15,421 nucleotides of DNA, taken from assembly GCA_026415985.1 (NCBI GenBank), contig JAOAGA010000041.1, positions 1 through 15,421 on the forward strand. Direction: 5' to 3'. Positions 6,486 through 15,421 of the stretch are shown one piece after another (positions within the stretch are counted from its first letter, which is position 1; each line of letters opens with the position of its first letter). A model generated the notes under the pieces. The model was given only the letters and a program-made list of their open reading frames with translations, was not told the origin of the DNA and did no database searches. Source of the DNA: Pseudomonadota bacterium. Its GTDB lineage: Bacteria > CALINM01. Made by a program: the position numbers and the translations under genes.

Positions 6486-6514
6486 ATTATAACCTATAAT
6501 TTCAGATTTTTAAA
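6486..6514 (-). promoter_or_regulatory. Possible internal promoter for prfA
   Basis: On the minus strand TTTAAA (6514-6509) is followed after 17 nt by TATAAT (6491-6486), about 45 nt before the prfA ATG and overlapping the end of the DUF1385 gene. The -10 is perfect and the -35 matches four of six. In AT-rich DNA such matches arise easily, so this is only a candidate for extra transcription of prfA, prmC and murA. Confidence 0.35.
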
Positions 6515-7339
6515 GGCTTGAATAGCTACTTCAATCTGAGTGTCATCGGGCTCTCTTGTTGTTATCTTTTGGAGCCAGAGACCGGGTAAAAAGATAAATT
6601 TAAAATATTTTGTCTTTTCCAGCTTAAGAAACTCGTATATTACCCCTGCAAGCACAGGAAAGGCAATTATTCTTAATAAAATTTTATATAACCATAAATC
6701 AGACCTGAAAAGGGAGAAAAAGATTATACTCAACAGCACAACTAATATTAAAAAACTTGTTCCACACCTTGGATGAAATCTGCTGTATTTTTTTACATTA
6801 TCGATTGTCAAATCTTCATTGTTTTCATAAGCAGAAATAACCTTATGTTCCGCGCCATGATACTCAAAAACCCTCTTTATGTCTTTCATTAATGAGATAG
6901 AAAGTAAGTAAAGAATAAAAAGAGCTACCCTGATGACCCCTTCAACAAAATTGAACCAAAAATGGCTTTCAAGTATTACCAGATATTTATTTAAAAAATT
7001 TGTTAAAAAAAGAGGCAGAAGGAAAAAAAATAAGATTGTAAAAAGAATAGCTACAACCGCAGAACCTATGAAATAGAGGTTGTTACTCTTTTTGTCTGTC
7101 TCTTCTATAACATCTACTGAAAATTTAAGGGCTTCAAAACCAAGTATCAAAAGAGAGAAAAGTTGTAAAAAACCTCTTGCAAAGGGGAGACGAAATATAT
7201 AGGCCCTTTTGGCGAGTGGAGTCAGTTCTTTTATCTTGACAGCAATATTACCATCAAGTTTTCTGACCGCCACAGACATAGCATTCTCCGATTTGAGCAT
7301 TACTCCTTCAATAACTGCCTGCCCGCCAACCTTTGCCAT
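6494..7339 (-). CDS. DUF1385 (YqhQ-like) membrane protein of unknown function
   Basis: Integral membrane protein of the DUF1385 family; its biochemical function is not known to me. I place the start at ATG 7339 (281 aa) because the family's conserved opening GGQAVIEGVM follows at once. A start at 7384 would add 15 residues that merely read the thyX 3' end. It has about four membrane segments near 90-117, 133-152, 195-212 and 221-236, plus a hydrophobic stretch near 57-72. Between segments lie conserved-looking polar blocks HGAEHK (161-166) and HPRCGT (189-194). The C-terminus has PGLWLQKITTREPDDTQIEV, a typical family ending. His, Glu and Cys in these blocks could form a metal or catalytic site; that is inference. 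Its ATG overlaps the thyX stop by one base (TAATG). An AGGAG lies 14 nt upstream, so coupling with thyX is likely. Confidence 0.88.
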   Translation of the reverse strand: MAKVGGQAVIEGVMLKSENAMSVAVRKLDGNIAVKIKELTPLAKRAYIFRLPFARGFLQLFSLLILGFEALKFSVDVIEETDKKSNNLYFIGSAVVAILFTILFFFLLPLFLTNFLNKYLVILESHFWFNFVEGVIRVALFILYLLSISLMKDIKRVFEYHGAEHKVISAYENNEDLTIDNVKKYSRFHPRCGTSFLILVVLLSIIFFSLFRSDLWLYKILLRIIAFPVLAGVIYEFLKLEKTKYFKFIFLPGLWLQKITTREPDDTQIEVAIQAFKNLKL

Positions 7340-8031
7340 TACAGGTTTTTCAACTCCTTTTTTACTTCCTTTGACATACCGCAACTCATCTCACCTTCAG
7401 GACATTTAGTTCTGATGCATTCAGGACCAGCGTTAACAAATATATTCGGACAAACATCTTTTACCCTTTTTAGCATTAACTTAGCCATTTCTCTGATCTC
7501 CCACTGAGCCCTTTTACAAAGCCTGAGTGTAAAAAAATGCAAGAGCTCGCGGGCATTCATAGATACAATAATTTTAGTCTCAGCAGAATTTGGTAAAACG
7601 TATCGGGCATCCTCTCTGTCGATTCCCAATTCAATAAGCCTATCGTAAGTCTCTTTAGAAAATTTAATGAAATCATCGAATATCTTTTTTGCTGATTTTT
7701 TATTTGAAATACTTTTCGGAGTTATATAGTTAAAATTTTCTTTGAAGATAACGTACCTTTGGCTTTGTTGTGAATAGGATGCGATCCTGTGTCTTACAAG
7801 TTGATGAGAACAGGCTCTTGATATGCCTTCCACGCCAAAGGTAAAGTTAGCGTGTTCAAATGCGGAAAGATGGCCACTTTTTGAAAGCTTCGCAATTAAC
7901 TCCTTAACCTTTTTTTCTGTCATCTCCCTTTCTAAATCAGAAATGTTAGATTTAAAATAGCAGAGCCTTCCTGCCCTTGCTATTATTTTTTCAGGATCTT
8001 TAGTATGGGAGAGCAATACAACATTAAGCAA
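7339..8031 (-). CDS. thyX: Flavin-dependent thymidylate synthase
   Basis: Makes dTMP from dUMP using methylene-tetrahydrofolate and reduced FAD; unrelated to ThyA. The 230 residues include the ThyX signature RHRX7S (R80-H81-R82 to S90), followed by QRYV. Also present are EDARYVLPNSAETKI (about 140-154), NARELLHFF (about 159-167) and RAQWEIREMA (about 174-183). The tail holds four Cys at 194, 205, 210 and 217 (GPECIRTKCPEGEMSC). The start is TTG at 8031, 2 nt after the rpmE stop, with AGGA about 7 nt upstream; no in-frame ATG is near. It sits between rpmE and the DUF1385 gene, which are adjacent in the arrangement I know from other bacteria, so thyX looks inserted into that block. Presence of ThyX suggests ThyA may be absent from the genome. 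Confidence 0.96.
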   Translation of the reverse strand: MLNVVLLSHTKDPEKIIARAGRLCYFKSNISDLEREMTEKKVKELIAKLSKSGHLSAFEHANFTFGVEGISRACSHQLVRHRIASYSQQSQRYVIFKENFNYITPKSISNKKSAKKIFDDFIKFSKETYDRLIELGIDREDARYVLPNSAETKIIVSMNARELLHFFTLRLCKRAQWEIREMAKLMLKRVKDVCPNIFVNAGPECIRTKCPEGEMSCGMSKEVKKELKNL

Positions 8032-10410: not shown

Positions 10411-11439
10411 TTAAGCTGCAACAAAATCATTTCTGCTGGTATTTTTAACCTTATACATAGCGTTGTCTGCCTTAACCACAAGCTCTTCCTTATTTTTCGC
10501 ATCTTCAGGAAAGTTGGCATAACCAATACTTGCGGTTAATTTAAGGCTCAGACCAACATTGCTGAGAAAATCCTTATTTCTGATATTATTTAATATCCTC
10601 TCTGCCACAAGGCCTGCCTGTTCCTTTGTTGTCTCCGGCAATATTATAACAAACTCATCACCGCCATATCTTATAGGTATATCAATACTTCTTATGGTAT
10701 TTTTTATAACCTCTGCAACCTCCTTTAGTAGCTGACTACCGTAAAGATGGCCATAGGTATCATTAACTTCCTTGAAGTGATCCATATCTATAAAAATCAG
10801 AGACAGTTCTCTGTTTTTTCTAAAGGCCCTTTTTATCTCCCTGTCAAGCATTTCGTGAAAAAAACGTGTATTATATAAACATGTTAGATCATCTTTCACT
10901 GTTAACTCCTGAATCTTAGAAAAATTGCGGGCATTATCAATCGCTATGGCGATATAATCGGAAAGATAAATCAAGATCTCCAGATCATCCTCAGTGAACT
11001 CTTTACCAATCTTTTTATTTATAAGTTCTATAACACCCAAGACATTATTTCTGCAAATAAGGGGACAACAAATAACTGACTTTGTCTTGAAACCAGTAAC
11101 ATTGTCTATAAAGGGTGAAAATCTTTCATCTTTTTCAGCATCTGTGACAAGAAGTGGTTTTTTGTGAGTGAAGACCCAACCCGCTATTCCTTCCCCTGCT
11201 TTTAATCTCTTCCCCTTTATTTTGTCTGAAAAATCACCGACAACAATCTCAAAATAAAGCTCCTGTGTTAATTCATCAACGAGAAGAAGAGACCAGTTTT
11301 TTGCTGATAAGATACCGCCAACCTTTTCGAGAACGAGTTTAAGAACTTTGTCTAACTCAAGGGTAGAAGTAAGAAGCTTACCTATCTCTGAGAGTGCCTT
11401 CAGTGTTAATATCTTTCTTTTATATACAGAAGATCTCAT
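10411..11439 (-). CDS. GAF-GGDEF diguanylate cyclase
   Basis: Predicted to make cyclic di-GMP from two GTP in the cytoplasm. Taken from ATG 11439 it has 342 residues: an N-terminal helix, a GAF sensor domain (about 28-168, with GEGIAGWVF and SVICCPLICRNNVLGVIELINK), a helical linker, then a GGDEF domain (about 180-335). The domain is intact: DDLTCLYN, FIDMDHFKEVNDTYGH, and GGDEF at 259-263 in RYGGDEFVIILPE. The inhibitory I-site RxxD (RSID, 250-253) sits five residues before it, so product feedback is expected. There is no EAL or HD-GYP domain. An in-frame TTG at 11478 would add 13 hydrophobic residues, but it coincides with a likely promoter, so I prefer 11439. The GAF ligand is unknown. It is followed by the helical-protein gene and divergent from phoU. 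Confidence 0.93.
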   Translation of the reverse strand: MRSSVYKRKILTLKALSEIGKLLTSTLELDKVLKLVLEKVGGILSAKNWSLLLVDELTQELYFEIVVGDFSDKIKGKRLKAGEGIAGWVFTHKKPLLVTDAEKDERFSPFIDNVTGFKTKSVICCPLICRNNVLGVIELINKKIGKEFTEDDLEILIYLSDYIAIAIDNARNFSKIQELTVKDDLTCLYNTRFFHEMLDREIKRAFRKNRELSLIFIDMDHFKEVNDTYGHLYGSQLLKEVAEVIKNTIRSIDIPIRYGGDEFVIILPETTKEQAGLVAERILNNIRNKDFLSNVGLSLKLTASIGYANFPEDAKNKEELVVKADNAMYKVKNTSRNDFVAA

Positions 11440-11449
11440 TTTTATAACT

Positions 11450-11478
11450 AATATATTAAAAACGGATAATAAAATCAA
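11450..11478 (-). promoter_or_regulatory. Possible promoter of the diguanylate cyclase gene
   Basis: On the minus strand TTGATT (11478-11473) is followed after exactly 17 nt by TATATT (11455-11450). A start of transcription about 7 nt further falls near 11443, only about 4 nt before the ATG at 11439. No Shine-Dalgarno sequence precedes that ATG, so the mRNA may be leaderless or nearly so. Confidence 0.45.
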
Positions 11479-11581: not shown

Positions 11582-12253
11582 ATGGATGGTCATATTTACA
11601 AATCCTTCGATAAGGAATTGAAAGAGTTAAAAGAAAAACTGCTATTTGAAGGTGGATTGGTAGAAAAGGCTATTGGTAACGCAATTAAGGCTCTTCTTGA
11701 GAGAGATTCAAGGCTTGCCGAGAAAGTTATTCAGGATGATGATATTATTAACTCAAGAGAGGTCGAGATAGACGAACTATGTCTTAAACTCCTTGCCCTT
11801 AGACAGCCCGCTGCAAGAGACTTAAGATTTATAACAACCGCAATAAAAATTAACTATGACCTGGAAAGAATCGGAGATATGTCCGTCAATATGTGTGAAA
11901 GGGTCCTTGAATTAAACGAGGAACCACAACTGAAACCTTACATTGACCTGCCCAAAATGGCAACCACCGTCCAGATGATGCTTAAAGACAGTTTAGACGC
12001 CTTTGTGAAAGAAGACGTTGAGCTTGCATGGAAAGTTACTAAAGACGATGAGACGGTAGACGTTCTCCATGATCAGATTTTCAGAGAGTTGCTAACCTAT
12101 ATGATGCAAGACCCCAAAACGATCAGCAGGGCAACAAGACTGCTTTTTATATCCAAATATTTGGAAAGAATGGCTGATCATTCTGTCAATATAGCTGAGC
12201 TTGTAATCTTTATGGTTGAAGGAAAGATTGTAAGACACCTGAAAAACTTCTAA
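11582..12253 (+). CDS. phoU: Phosphate-uptake regulator PhoU
   Basis: Cytoplasmic regulator that links the Pst transporter to phosphate signalling and limits phosphate uptake. The 223 residues form the expected two similar three-helix bundles, each with one metal-binding E-x-x-x-D motif: DLERIGDMSVNM (ERIGD at 95-99) and YLERMADHSVNI (ERMAD at 195-199). ALRQPAARDLRFI (72-84) is a typical conserved block. The start is ATG 11582 with GGAGG 7 nt upstream, directly after a good promoter. It is the first gene of the operon and pstS starts 13 nt after its stop; in E. coli and many other bacteria phoU follows pstB. No phoR or phoB is in the window. Confidence 0.95.
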   Translation: MDGHIYKSFDKELKELKEKLLFEGGLVEKAIGNAIKALLERDSRLAEKVIQDDDIINSREVEIDELCLKLLALRQPAARDLRFITTAIKINYDLERIGDMSVNMCERVLELNEEPQLKPYIDLPKMATTVQMMLKDSLDAFVKEDVELAWKVTKDDETVDVLHDQIFRELLTYMMQDPKTISRATRLLFISKYLERMADHSVNIAELVIFMVEGKIVRHLKNF

Positions 12254-12266
12254 AGAGGTTTTTAAT

Positions 12267-13067
12267 TTGAAAAAGATAATCTTTTTTCTGCTAATTCTTA
12301 CGGTTTTTTCCTGTCAATCAAAAAGTAATGATCATTTGAATAAACATTCCGTTACTATTGCGGGATCTACCTCAGTCATGCCATTTACTGAAAAGTTAGC
12401 CGAATATTTTATGATAGGCAATCCTACCTTTGTGGTCAATGTTCAGGCAGGAGGATCAACTGCGGGGATTCAGGCAACAATAAATAAAACCGTAGCTATA
12501 GGAATGTCATCGAGGGAGTTGAAGGAAGACGAAAAGATTTTAAAGGAGATACCCATCTGTTATGATGGTATTGCTATCGTTGTTAACCCTAAAAATCCTA
12601 TTAATAACCTTTCTCTTAAGGAAGTACAGGATATTTTCTCCGGTAAGATTAGAAACTGGAAAGATTTAGGATGGATTGACAGAAATATTGATGCCGTTAC
12701 AAGAGAAGAAGGCTCTGGAACAAGGGGTGCCTTTGAAGAGCTTGTTATGAAAAAAACGGAGATTTCTGACGCTATAATGGTTCAGGACTCAAATGGTTCT
12801 GTAAAGGAGATGGTAGTTACAGACCCCTATGCTATCGGATATATCTCATTAGGGATGGTTGACAATAAGGTAAAAGCTTTAGCAATCGATAACCATCCAC
12901 CAACTATTGAAAATATTAAAAATAAAAGTTATAAAATTGTAAGACCTTTTCTTTATCTCATCAATGGTGATCCTTCAGATGATGCAAAAAAATTTATTAA
13001 TTATGTGCTATCAAAAGAGGGCCAACAAATATTAAAAAAAGAGGGGTTGATACCTGTAAATGATTGA
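12267..13067 (+). CDS. pstS: Phosphate ABC transporter substrate-binding lipoprotein
   Basis: Binds inorganic phosphate outside the inner membrane and delivers it to PstCA. The 266 residues start with a lysine-rich, hydrophobic signal ending in TVFSC, a lipobox with C16 as the likely lipid anchor (Phe at -2 is unusual). The mature protein shows AGSTSVMPF (32-40), AGGSTAGIQA (61-70), a TREEGSGTRGAFEE loop (about 145-158) and SNGSVKEMV, where Ser, Thr, Arg and Asp residues ligate phosphate in this family. It is shorter than E. coli PstS and belongs to the compact PBP-like type common outside enterics. The start is TTG at 12267 with AGAGG 8 nt upstream. The end overlaps pstC by 8 nt. Confidence 0.95.
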   Translation: MKKIIFFLLILTVFSCQSKSNDHLNKHSVTIAGSTSVMPFTEKLAEYFMIGNPTFVVNVQAGGSTAGIQATINKTVAIGMSSRELKEDEKILKEIPICYDGIAIVVNPKNPINNLSLKEVQDIFSGKIRNWKDLGWIDRNIDAVTREEGSGTRGAFEELVMKKTEISDAIMVQDSNGSVKEMVVTDPYAIGYISLGMVDNKVKALAIDNHPPTIENIKNKSYKIVRPFLYLINGDPSDDAKKFINYVLSKEGQQILKKEGLIPVND

Positions 13068-13923
13068 CAGAGCTTTAAAAATAGATAAGTATATAAGAAT
13101 TATTTTACTTATCTTTGCCCTTTCCTCTCTATTATTTTTATTCTTAATATTTATTTTTATATTAATTGAGGGATTGCCACTCTTTTTTAAAGTTGGCGTT
13201 AAAAATATTGTTTTAGGTTATAAATGGGCACCCACTAAAGGACACTTTGGTATCTTTCCCATGATAGTCTCTTCTTTTTTGGTCACTTTCGGAGCCTTAA
13301 TAGTAGGTGGTCCCATTGGTCTTGCCTGTGCAACTTACTTAGCAGAATATGCAGGTAAAAAGAGAAAATTATTTTTAAAACCTGCACTGGAGCTTTTGGC
13401 GGGTATTCCTTCCGTTGTCTATGGGTTTTTAGGCGTTATTTATATAGTTCCTATAATCAGGGAAACCCTTGGCGGTTCGGGATTCTCATTGCTTACCTCA
13501 TCAATAATTCTCGGGATAATGATATTACCAACTGTTATCAGTATTACCTATGATTCTCTGATGAGTGTTCCTAAATCGTACAGAGAAGGAGCATTAGCCA
13601 TGGGGGCAACTAAATGGCAGACAATATGGCGAGTTGTTATACCAACTGCAAAATCAGGTATTATGGCGGGCTTCATTCTCGGTATGGGCAGAGCCATAGG
13701 AGAGACAATGGCTGTGATAATGGTGGCAGGAAACGCCCTTAAAATCCCGTCAAGTCTTCTTGATCCGTTAAGAACCCTTACAAGTAATATCGCACTTGAG
13801 TTAGCCTATGCTACAGGGGAACACAGAAAAGCCCTTTTTTCAACAGGAGTTGTTCTTTTAATAATAATTATGATTCTAAACTATTTAGCAAACTTCGTTT
13901 TCAGGAAAAAGGTAATAAAATGA
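13060..13923 (+). CDS. pstC: Phosphate ABC transporter permease PstC
   Basis: One of the two inner-membrane permease subunits of the Pst phosphate importer. The 287 residues have six predicted membrane segments (about 12-37, 66-92, 106-130, 145-163, 196-222 and 257-280). The ABC-coupling EAA loop lies at about 173-200 (YREGALAMGATKWQTIWRVV). The conserved GRAIGETMAV follows at about 210-219; the Arg and Glu of this motif are conserved in PstC proteins. It starts at ATG 13060 inside the pstS end and overlaps pstA as ATGA, so the subunits are probably translated together. A GAGGGG lies 13 nt upstream, which is long. Being first of the permease pair and starting with a single N-terminal helix before the domain, it fits PstC. 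Confidence 0.95.
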   Translation: MIDRALKIDKYIRIILLIFALSSLLFLFLIFIFILIEGLPLFFKVGVKNIVLGYKWAPTKGHFGIFPMIVSSFLVTFGALIVGGPIGLACATYLAEYAGKKRKLFLKPALELLAGIPSVVYGFLGVIYIVPIIRETLGGSGFSLLTSSIILGIMILPTVISITYDSLMSVPKSYREGALAMGATKWQTIWRVVIPTAKSGIMAGFILGMGRAIGETMAVIMVAGNALKIPSSLLDPLRTLTSNIALELAYATGEHRKALFSTGVVLLIIIMILNYLANFVFRKKVIK

Positions 13924-14756
13924 AATTTAACCCGAAAACTATTAATAAATTAGTTAAAGTATCTCTAAATATACAGGCAATATTTACAGTCTTTATTCTC
14001 GTTGCCATAGTTCTAATAATTTTCATAAAAGGTATCAGGCATTTCAATCTTGAGTTTATATTAGGTTATCCGGAGGATATGGGGCGTCATGGCGGAATAT
14101 TTCCAGCCATTATCGGAACTATCTTTTTAGTAGTGCTCTCCCTTGCATTTGCAACACCATTAGGGTTAGGTACCGCTATATACCTTACAGAATATACAAA
14201 GGAAACGACATTTACAAAAATAATCCGGTTTGGGGTAGAATCCCTCGCAGGAATACCTTCAATACTCTATGGATTATTTGGTTTCATCTTTTTTGTTATT
14301 AAACTTAAGATGGGCTGGTCTTTGCTTGCAGGTGCGTTAACTATGGCAATAATGATCTTACCAACAATTATAAGAACCAGTGAAGAAGCCATTAAATCAG
14401 TCCCCAAAAATCTCAGAATGGTGAGTTTTTCTTTAGGCGCCACAAAATGGGAGACTGTAACGAAGGTTGTTCTACCGTCTTCTGCACCGGGAATACTAAC
14501 TGGAATTATGCTCTCAATTGGCAGAGCGGTTGGGGAAACAGCCGCAGTAATATTTACGATGGGTAGCTCATTAAGACTGCCAACATCGCTTTCAGATTCA
14601 GGAAGAACAATGGCAGTTCATTTTTATATTTTGGCAAGAGAAGGCATCTCTATGGAGATGGCCTATTCTACCGCCCTGGTACTGGTTTTGAGCATACTTT
14701 TTATAAATATAATGGCCTATTATCTTATGAATAAGTTTATTTCAAAATACTCCTGA
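13920..14756 (+). CDS. pstA: Phosphate ABC transporter permease PstA
   Basis: Second inner-membrane permease subunit, pairing with PstC to form the phosphate channel. The 278 residues have about six membrane segments (about 14-37, 60-88, 103-127, 135-152, 191-213 and 247-271). The EAA loop is at about 163-191 (SLGATKWETVTKVV), and the conserved GRAVGETAAVIFT is at about 201-213. The ATG at 13920 overlaps the pstC stop by 4 nt, with AAGG about 7 nt upstream. The stop at 14756 is 6 nt before the pstB ATG. The EAA loop, which docks on the ATPase next to its Q-loop, looks normal here, in contrast to the altered PstB. Confidence 0.95.
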   Translation: MKFNPKTINKLVKVSLNIQAIFTVFILVAIVLIIFIKGIRHFNLEFILGYPEDMGRHGGIFPAIIGTIFLVVLSLAFATPLGLGTAIYLTEYTKETTFTKIIRFGVESLAGIPSILYGLFGFIFFVIKLKMGWSLLAGALTMAIMILPTIIRTSEEAIKSVPKNLRMVSFSLGATKWETVTKVVLPSSAPGILTGIMLSIGRAVGETAAVIFTMGSSLRLPTSLSDSGRTMAVHFYILAREGISMEMAYSTALVLVLSILFINIMAYYLMNKFISKYS

Positions 14757-14762
14757 GGATAT

Positions 14763-15421
14763 ATGGACATAAAAATTAGTGCAATTAATCTTAAAGTTAA
14801 GATTGACAATTCAGAAGTTTTAAAAGATATAAACTTATCAATTTACAAAAACACTATAACAGGGCTTATGGGGCCCGCTGGCAGTGGAAAGAGCACCTTC
14901 ATCTCCGTTATAAACAGGATGATTGATTTTATAGAAAATGTTGAGATATATGGCAATCTTGATATAGACGGTGTTAATATCCTTGAGGAAGAAAATGTTG
15001 TATCTCTCAGAAGAAGAATAGGAACTGTTTTTGCTGTGCCCTTACCCTTGCCAAGATCTATTTATGAAAATATCGTCTATGGGCCAAGACTTAAGGGCAT
15101 TTCAAACAAAAACAAGTTAGATTTTATAGTTGAAGACTGCCTGAAAAAGGCCTTTTTATGGGATGAAGTAAAAAACAGGCTTAATACCTCTGCTCTTAAG
15201 CTGTCGGGTGGACAACAGCAAAGATTATGCCTTGCAAGGACATTGGCATTAAATCCAGAGATAATTCTTTTAGATGAGCCCTGTTCCGGTCTGGACCCCA
15301 TATCAACAGCAAAGATAGAAGAAGCACTAAACGAGTTGAAACGTGATTACACAATAATTCTGGTATCAAACAATACAAAACAGATAGCCCGTGCAACAGA
15401 CTATTCGGCCTTTTTCTATTT
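14763..15421 (+). CDS. pstB: Phosphate ABC transporter ATPase PstB, variant lacking several nucleotide-site residues (cut by window edge)
   Basis: ATPase subunit that powers phosphate import through PstCA. It starts at ATG 14763 with GAGG 4 nt upstream, and 219 codons are visible before the window ends. Standard parts are Walker A GPAGSGKST (37-45), signature LSGGQQQRLCLAR (147-159), Walker B ILLDEP (about 168-173) with catalytic E172, D-loop SGLD (175-178) and PstB-specific SIYENIVYGPR (99-109). Three usual contacts are changed when aligned to E. coli PstB. The Q-loop Gln is Ala (A91, VFAVPLPLP where VFQKPTPFP is usual). The H-loop His is Asn (N203, VSNNTKQ where VTHNMQQ is usual). The A-loop Tyr-Tyr-Gly is missing (LKVKIDNSEVL). 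The reading frame is intact, so it is not an obvious pseudogene. The C-terminus is not visible. Confidence 0.93.
   Translation, partial: MDIKISAINLKVKIDNSEVLKDINLSIYKNTITGLMGPAGSGKSTFISVINRMIDFIENVEIYGNLDIDGVNILEEENVVSLRRRIGTVFAVPLPLPRSIYENIVYGPRLKGISNKNKLDFIVEDCLKKAFLWDEVKNRLNTSALKLSGGQQQRLCLARTLALNPEIILLDEPCSGLDPISTAKIEEALNELKRDYTIILVSNNTKQIARATDYSAFFY

Follow-up and report, generated by a model that had tools for sequence, protein, structure and literature searches.

Results

A pst operon at the end of a contig

The window, that is, the whole stretch of DNA analyzed here, comprises positions 1 to 15,421 of contig JAOAGA010000041.1 (assembly GCA_026415985.1) of a Pseudomonadota bacterium from the CALINM01 lineage. 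From position 11582 to the contig end, its forward strand carries a phoU-pstS-pstC-pstA-pstB operon (Table 1). The start of pstA overlaps the end of pstC, and pstB begins 6 bases past pstA. Judged by its solved relatives in Table 1, the pstS product is a phosphate-binding protein. The pstB reading frame stays open for 219 codons, up to the point where the contig (C97) breaks off.

Table 1. Features of the pst operon in the window
Feature	Position	Strand	Remarks
phoU	11582..12253	+	TIGR02135, E 4e-72; first operon gene in the window
pstS, phosphate-binding lipoprotein	12267..13067	+	TIGR02136; solved phosphate-binding 4gd5 (E 7e-59) and 4q8r (E 4e-57)
pstC, permease	13060..13923	+	TIGR02138, E 1e-90
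PstC coupling helix, SVPKSYREGALAMGATKW	13564-13617	+	Normal type; loop REGALAMGAT
pstA, permease	13920..14756	+	TIGR00974, E 5e-85
PstA coupling helix (EAA loop), VPKNLRMVSFSLGATKW	14400..14450	+	Altered
pstB, putative degenerate ("N-type") subunit	14763..15419	+	219 codons to the contig end; 3' end missing
Walker A, GPAGSGKST	14871..14897	+	Intact; Lys in 61/61 relatives
Q-loop, codon 91	15033..15035	+	Ala (GCT) instead of the canonical Gln; every relative of this type has A, P, D, or S
Signature, LSGGQ	15201..15215	+	Intact in the window PstB; lost in the partner
Walker B Asp171 and catalytic Glu172	15273..15278	+	Intact
H-loop (switch), codon 203	15369..15371	+	AAC = Asn, canonical His; Asn in 61/61 distinct relatives

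The pstB fragment matches the TIGR00972 family with an E-value of 8e-83 and 277.6 bits, the curated cut-off being 343.2 bits. Full-length proteins of the same type score 275-368 bits and thus span both sides of this cut-off, which drops many of them and admits others, so that automatic annotation of the subfamily is inconsistent. The structure model of the window PstB is a confident nucleotide-binding domain (NBD) with pLDDT of 92, and the nearest solved fold is that of E. coli PstB (9k3x_C, TM 0.96, 46% identity).

Among the other genes of the window, a GAF-GGDEF diguanylate cyclase gene (10411-11478) lies divergently just upstream of phoU and may share a promoter region with it, and a gene for a DUF1385 membrane protein (6494-7384; Pfam PF07136, E 9e-81) is located between prfA and thyX-like genes.

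Altered ATPase motifs in the window PstB

A preliminary description of this DNA reported Ala in place of the Q-loop Gln and Asn in place of the switch His, with Walker A, the signature, Walker B including the Glu, and the D-loop all intact, and each of these readings agrees with the sequence. The Ala belongs to the motif VFAVP and the Asn to VSNN. The counterparts in E. coli PstB are VFQKP and VTHN, and the same motifs occur in many of the surveyed canonical PstBs. The A-loop, LKVKIDN, has no aromatic residue, as was also reported; this holds for the window protein but not for the group, since Tyr or Phe is kept in 56 of 61 distinct relatives, and loss of the A-loop was therefore rejected as part of the syndrome. 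The combination of Ala and Asn recurs in the sister genome G002 (78% identity) and in four more relatives at 65-74% identity. Sequencing error and pseudogene formation are ruled out, because the sister genome and many relatives carry identical residues.

Two types of PstB and the reciprocally altered neighbor

The 66 PstBs included from the nearest 80 loci in named genomes, most of them metagenome-assembled, form two kinds without mixtures, one with Gln and His in the Q- and H-loops and the other with Ala, Pro, or Ser together with Asn (hereafter, the Asn type); these loci were picked with patterns including LSGGQ, so that other kinds could be missed, and one of them (L051) is masked at the H-loop. 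The titles of the Asn-type loci include Syntrophorhabdus, Omnitrophota, Aminicenantes, Planctomycetota, Verrucomicrobiota, Poribacteria, Bacteriovoracaceae, Acidobacteria, and Kofleriaceae, among others. In the neighborhoods of the relatives, the Asn-type pstB is followed by a second pstB, here called the partner.

We searched 386 genomes, in most cases one or a few from each family, with profiles of the Asn type and of the partner. At a strict profile threshold, a match was obtained in 25 of 389 genomes; G043, G055, and G393 proved canonical, leaving 22 with the Asn type. After removal of near-copies (rows below 90% identity were kept), the set contained 61 Asn-type and 86 canonical PstBs, a part of the survey PstBs having been read, so rare mixed forms may exist. 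Another 45 stretches added 5 pairs with the complementary motifs described below, and 40 PstBs from the survey list, all of them canonical. Ordinary PstBs do not commonly have the substitutions: Gln and His were found in all 86 distinct solo or Firmicute-type proteins and in the 40 further ones.

The partner is directly downstream of the Asn type in 59 of the 61 distinct relatives, the remaining two being the window, with its contig end, and the unlinked case of G332. In all 59 distinct pairs the partner has the Q-loop Gln and the H-loop His, whereas position 4 of its signature, the second Gly of LSGGQ, is replaced by Glu (55 cases), Asp (3), or Tyr (1), resulting in LSEEM, LSLEQ, LTGEQ, LPLEQ, LQLEQ, LSDEQ, and similar motifs. 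The Asn-type proteins of these pairs show the opposite picture, with A, P, D, or S in the Q-loop, Asn in the H-loop, and an intact LSGGQ. Both halves have preserved the catalytic Glu, Walker A, and the D-loop; the Asn type keeps the Glu, the Walker A Lys, and the D-loop Asp. None of the 86 distinct canonical PstBs has a broken-signature neighbor. The three broken-signature PstBs that were not scored directly behind an Asn type are all accounted for: one follows the masked Asn-type gene of L051, another stands behind an Asn-type gene that is truncated at a contig edge (L166), and the third (L171) is the unlinked copy of G332.

In the sister genome G002, the start of the partner overlaps the stop of the Asn-type gene (TAATG). 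In the window the partner is out of view because the contig ends inside pstB, and the partner profile gave no partner-type match on the other contigs of this genome; we would expect the gene to come next, just beyond the contig end. G332 is the only genome seen with unlinked halves (contigs C52 and C57; L204 and L203). Here the Asn type lies inside a contig of 161 kb and the partner inside one of 25 kb, with no pst gene near the partner copy, and both genes are kept.

Phylogeny of the pair

For tree building, the alignment columns of the Q-loop, the signature, and the H-loop were left out. In the first tree the Asn types formed one group and the partners another, with support of 98 and 98. A more careful search gave 100/98 for the Asn types and 100/95 for the partners, the bootstrap being 100 for each half, with the canonical PstBs between them, and the distances among Asn types and among partners are correlated (Mantel r 0.87). 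The earlier suggestion of a co-evolved PstB subfamily is thus borne out by a single group that persists without the motif columns.

Since each half forms one clade, the 59 pairs do not count as so many independent events; most likely the pair originated a single time, or a few times, and its halves were inherited together. Across the 59 pairs there is no case of a half that reverted or was lost, while the exact residues kept changing (A/P/D/S in one half, E/D/Y in the other). We regard this absence of reversion or loss despite shifting residues as the repeated evidence for the pair.

Coupling helices and operon structure

The EAA loops of both permeases had been described as normal. This is correct for PstC, but the loop of the window PstA, RMVSFSLGAT, has Met for the EAA Glu and Ser for an Ala. 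Ser or Asn replaces Ala at the second position before the EAA-loop Gly of PstA in 48 of 53 Asn-type operons compared with 5 of 68 canonical ones, and an equivalent shift is absent from the PstC helix (2 of 46 and 3 of 51, respectively); the permeases of Asn-type operons cluster in trees, and so these counts are not independent events. An altered coupling in both permeases was rejected, the change being confined to PstA.

The Asn-type PstBs sit in pstS-pstC-pstA operons with phoU, in most cases within the operon. The preliminary description proposed PhoU-first operons as a mark of the subfamily, which does not hold, as phoU is the last gene in many of the relatives' loci.

Additional pst genes

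In G058, G148, and G149, which are 92-99% complete, the unequal pair is the only PstB, and the PHO4 and Na/Pi cotransporter families were looked for in these three genomes and not found. The unequal pair thus probably works, and is probably the phosphate importer of G058, G148, and G149.

A second, canonical pstB, which the preliminary description had proposed to look for, does exist in the genome of the window, in a separate canonical Pst operon on contig C140; the PstB encoded there has LSGGQ. Other genomes also hold a canonical Pst operon, which sometimes adjoins the pair (L186, L188, L189, and L194). In these four loci, as well as in L016 and L043, a canonical operon with one pstB lies beside the operon with two and in the same direction.

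Several loci contain further PstB-like proteins. In Poribacteria-type operons (L205:457-8942, L063:1971-9941, and L068:566-8358), the unequal pair is followed by a further BPD permease, a third PstB-like protein with the altered signature LSNGQ or LSIGQ and an H-loop Asn, and phoU. An Ion_trans channel gene (Pfam PF00520, E 2e-36) is located between pstA and pstB in L205, and an ORF without family assignment takes this place in L063. In an Acidobacteria metagenome-assembled genome (L064:7402-8286), a very divergent third PstB-like ORF with a Q-loop Thr, an H-loop Asn, and the signature LTTSM stands directly behind the unequal pair. Finally, the second tandem pstB of Streptococcus hyovaginalis (L056:6745-7512) has Arg for the H-loop His and an intact LSGGQ, possibly an independent start of a similar asymmetry in Firmicutes.

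Comparison with known systems

The E. coli transporter PstSCAB (PDB 9k3s, 9k3x, and 9k3y) shares with the systems considered here the operon genes, the NBD fold, and the phosphate-type PstS, but has one pstB with intact motifs rather than two unequal genes that split them. Tandem pstB genes are known from Firmicutes, namely pstB1/pstB2 of E. faecalis and PstBA/PstBB of B. subtilis, where two adjacent pstB genes likewise occupy one pst operon; the layout of the Enterococcus loci examined is the same as in the two-pstB operons found here, and the B. subtilis heterodimer has been modelled. However, neither E. faecalis protein has lost any ATPase motif (PMC12096839), and those of L045 and L048 are intact as well; the Firmicute pair branches elsewhere in the PstB tree. 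The E. faecalis work was the only study of tandem pstB genes found in the open-access literature, and by its own account nothing on such paralogs had appeared before it (PMC12096839).

The division of motifs follows the pattern of the degenerate-site exporters TAP1/2, CFTR, MRP1, TM287/288, and Pdr5. Of their two composite sites one is canonical and the other degenerate, the signature being lost in one NBD and other site residues in its counterpart, and the degenerate Pdr5 signature LNVEQ resembles LSLEQ of the partner (PMC7756269). Full restoration of the degenerate site abolishes transport by Pdr5 (PMC7756269). These proteins are exporters, and the Walker B Glu that is often lost in them is kept in the Asn type, in which, unlike the exporters, the Q-loop and the H-loop change together. 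Importers with one degenerate ATP site are also known, the fused ATPases of the RbsA/NupO type in a few sugar and nucleoside importers, but these are described as type II importers with two NBDs in one chain, and the second Walker A Lys is lost (PMC11466899), whereas the Asn-type pair consists of two genes of a Pst system with Walker A intact. DppD/DppF, again from a binding-protein-dependent importer, resembles the pair in having two different NBD genes, but there ATP is bound and hydrolyzed at both sites (PMC12136057), and the two single Glu-to-Gln mutants are reported to be equally active.

Discussion

In ABC transporters an ATP site is composed of the Walker motifs and the Q- and H-loops of one subunit and the signature of the other (PMC7756269). 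Given this rule and the complementary losses, neither homodimer of the unequal pair would be complete. By motif anatomy, an Asn-type homodimer would have two sites without the Q-loop Gln and the H-loop His, and a partner homodimer would have two sites without an intact signature, whereas a heterodimer would combine one canonical and one degenerate site. With A91 and N203 in the window PstB and partners without LSGGQ in the relatives, the canonical homodimeric motif set is absent. We therefore infer a physical heterodimer from the motif anatomy, and suggest, with a probability of about 0.8, that the pair is an obligate PstB heterodimer with a single hydrolyzing site, a variant of the degenerate-site ABC transporters. 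The earlier proposals that this PstB acts alone with a different hydrolysis mode, or forms a slow or low-conductance single-subunit Pst system, are not supported, given the complementary LSGGQ defect of the operon partner in every relative where it is in view.

In this reading, a Pst importer would have two ATPase subunits that differ from each other, and the window pstB would encode one of them. Site 1, made of the partner's Walker motifs, Q-loop, and H-loop and of the Asn-type LSGGQ, would be canonical and hydrolyze ATP. Site 2 would be made of the Asn-type Walker A and B, with the Ala Q-loop and the Asn H-loop, and of the partner's LSxEQ-like signature, placing an acidic residue where Gly should meet the γ-phosphate. 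This site could bind nucleotide with little or no hydrolysis and serve as a structural or allosteric hinge, so that one ATP would be hydrolyzed per cycle. Its inactivity is what we infer from the residues present; since the Asn type keeps the catalytic Glu, the Walker A Lys, and the D-loop Asp, site 2 may still hydrolyze slowly, and in MRP1 the replacement of the H-loop His by Asn in NBS2 alone is tolerated (PMC7756269). As the Q-loop touches the coupling helix and only the PstA helix is changed, PstA is probably the docking site of the Asn-type subunit and PstC that of the partner, which is the simplest reading.

A more detailed scheme is tentative, and we consider it somewhat less probable than its opposite. 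In what would be a widespread class of asymmetric phosphate importers, the conserved H-loop Asn could face the conserved signature acid, mostly Glu, across the degenerate site and hold the PstA side of the motor shut throughout the cycle, so that each phosphate would be imported at the cost of a single ATP and a single power stroke, on the PstC side. If true, half of the motor of a binding-protein-dependent importer, encoded by two genes, would be silent by design.

Other readings of the pair start from the same observations. The Asn type might be a regulatory PstB-like protein outside the transporter, for instance a partner of PhoU or of a sensor, with the neighboring PstB forming an ordinary homodimer. 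The presence of phoU within the operon in most cases fits this, nucleotide binding would be possible with Walker A kept, and the literature describes a PstB-PhoU contact (cited in PMC12096839). But in each of the 59 distinct pairs both sites of the supposed ordinary homodimer would be opposed by a broken signature, the PstA coupling helix is changed along with the pair, and three nearly complete genomes have no other PstB, all of which makes a purely regulatory role improbable. We give an equally low chance to a heterodimer in which both sites hydrolyze ATP and the changes tune its rate or coupling, as in a specialized pair resembling the Firmicute PstB1/PstB2. The intact catalytic Glu, Walker A, and D-loop of both halves, the tolerated His-to-Asn change in NBS2 of MRP1 (PMC7756269), and the two active sites in the heterodimeric importer motor DppD/DppF of E. 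coli (PMC12136057) all speak for it. Against it, site 2 consistently lacks the Q-loop Gln, the H-loop His, and the signature Gly together, with a mostly acidic residue at the γ-phosphate contact; the degenerate site of Pdr5 has a similar signature, LNVEQ (PMC7756269), whereas the motifs of E. faecalis PstB1 and PstB2 are identical and intact (PMC12096839).

Decay of a duplicated first pstB on its way to loss could also explain the change of several catalytic motifs, and the genome of the window does have a canonical pstB elsewhere. Nevertheless, the H-loop Asn and the intact signature are fixed in all 61 distinct sequences from many bacterial groups, the frames are open, the partner bears the reciprocal change, and three nearly complete genomes have no PstB besides the pair; decay is thus very improbable, by far the least likely of these readings, and the heterodimer with one hydrolyzing site remains our preferred one.

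A search of the open-access literature turned up neither a report of a degenerate site in a Pst transporter nor a discussion of this PstB subfamily, in agreement with the earlier guess that it had not been discussed as such. Tandem pstB genes of Firmicutes, degenerate-site exporters, and fused importers with a degenerate site were already known; what appears to be new is a degenerate-site Pst pair.

Pst is among the best studied of bacterial uptake systems, and its motor is usually a pair of identical subunits. These observations suggest that this motor was divided, apparently in a single ancient event, into one catalytic and one degenerate site, and that many bacterial groups have maintained the division. 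In a simple importer of this kind one could test why ABC transporters retain an ATP site that is dead, which is a long-standing question, and whether uptake can run on a single ATP per cycle. The two pstB copies in such genomes would not be redundant, and the annotation of a single gene as "PstB" would hide a machine of two parts.
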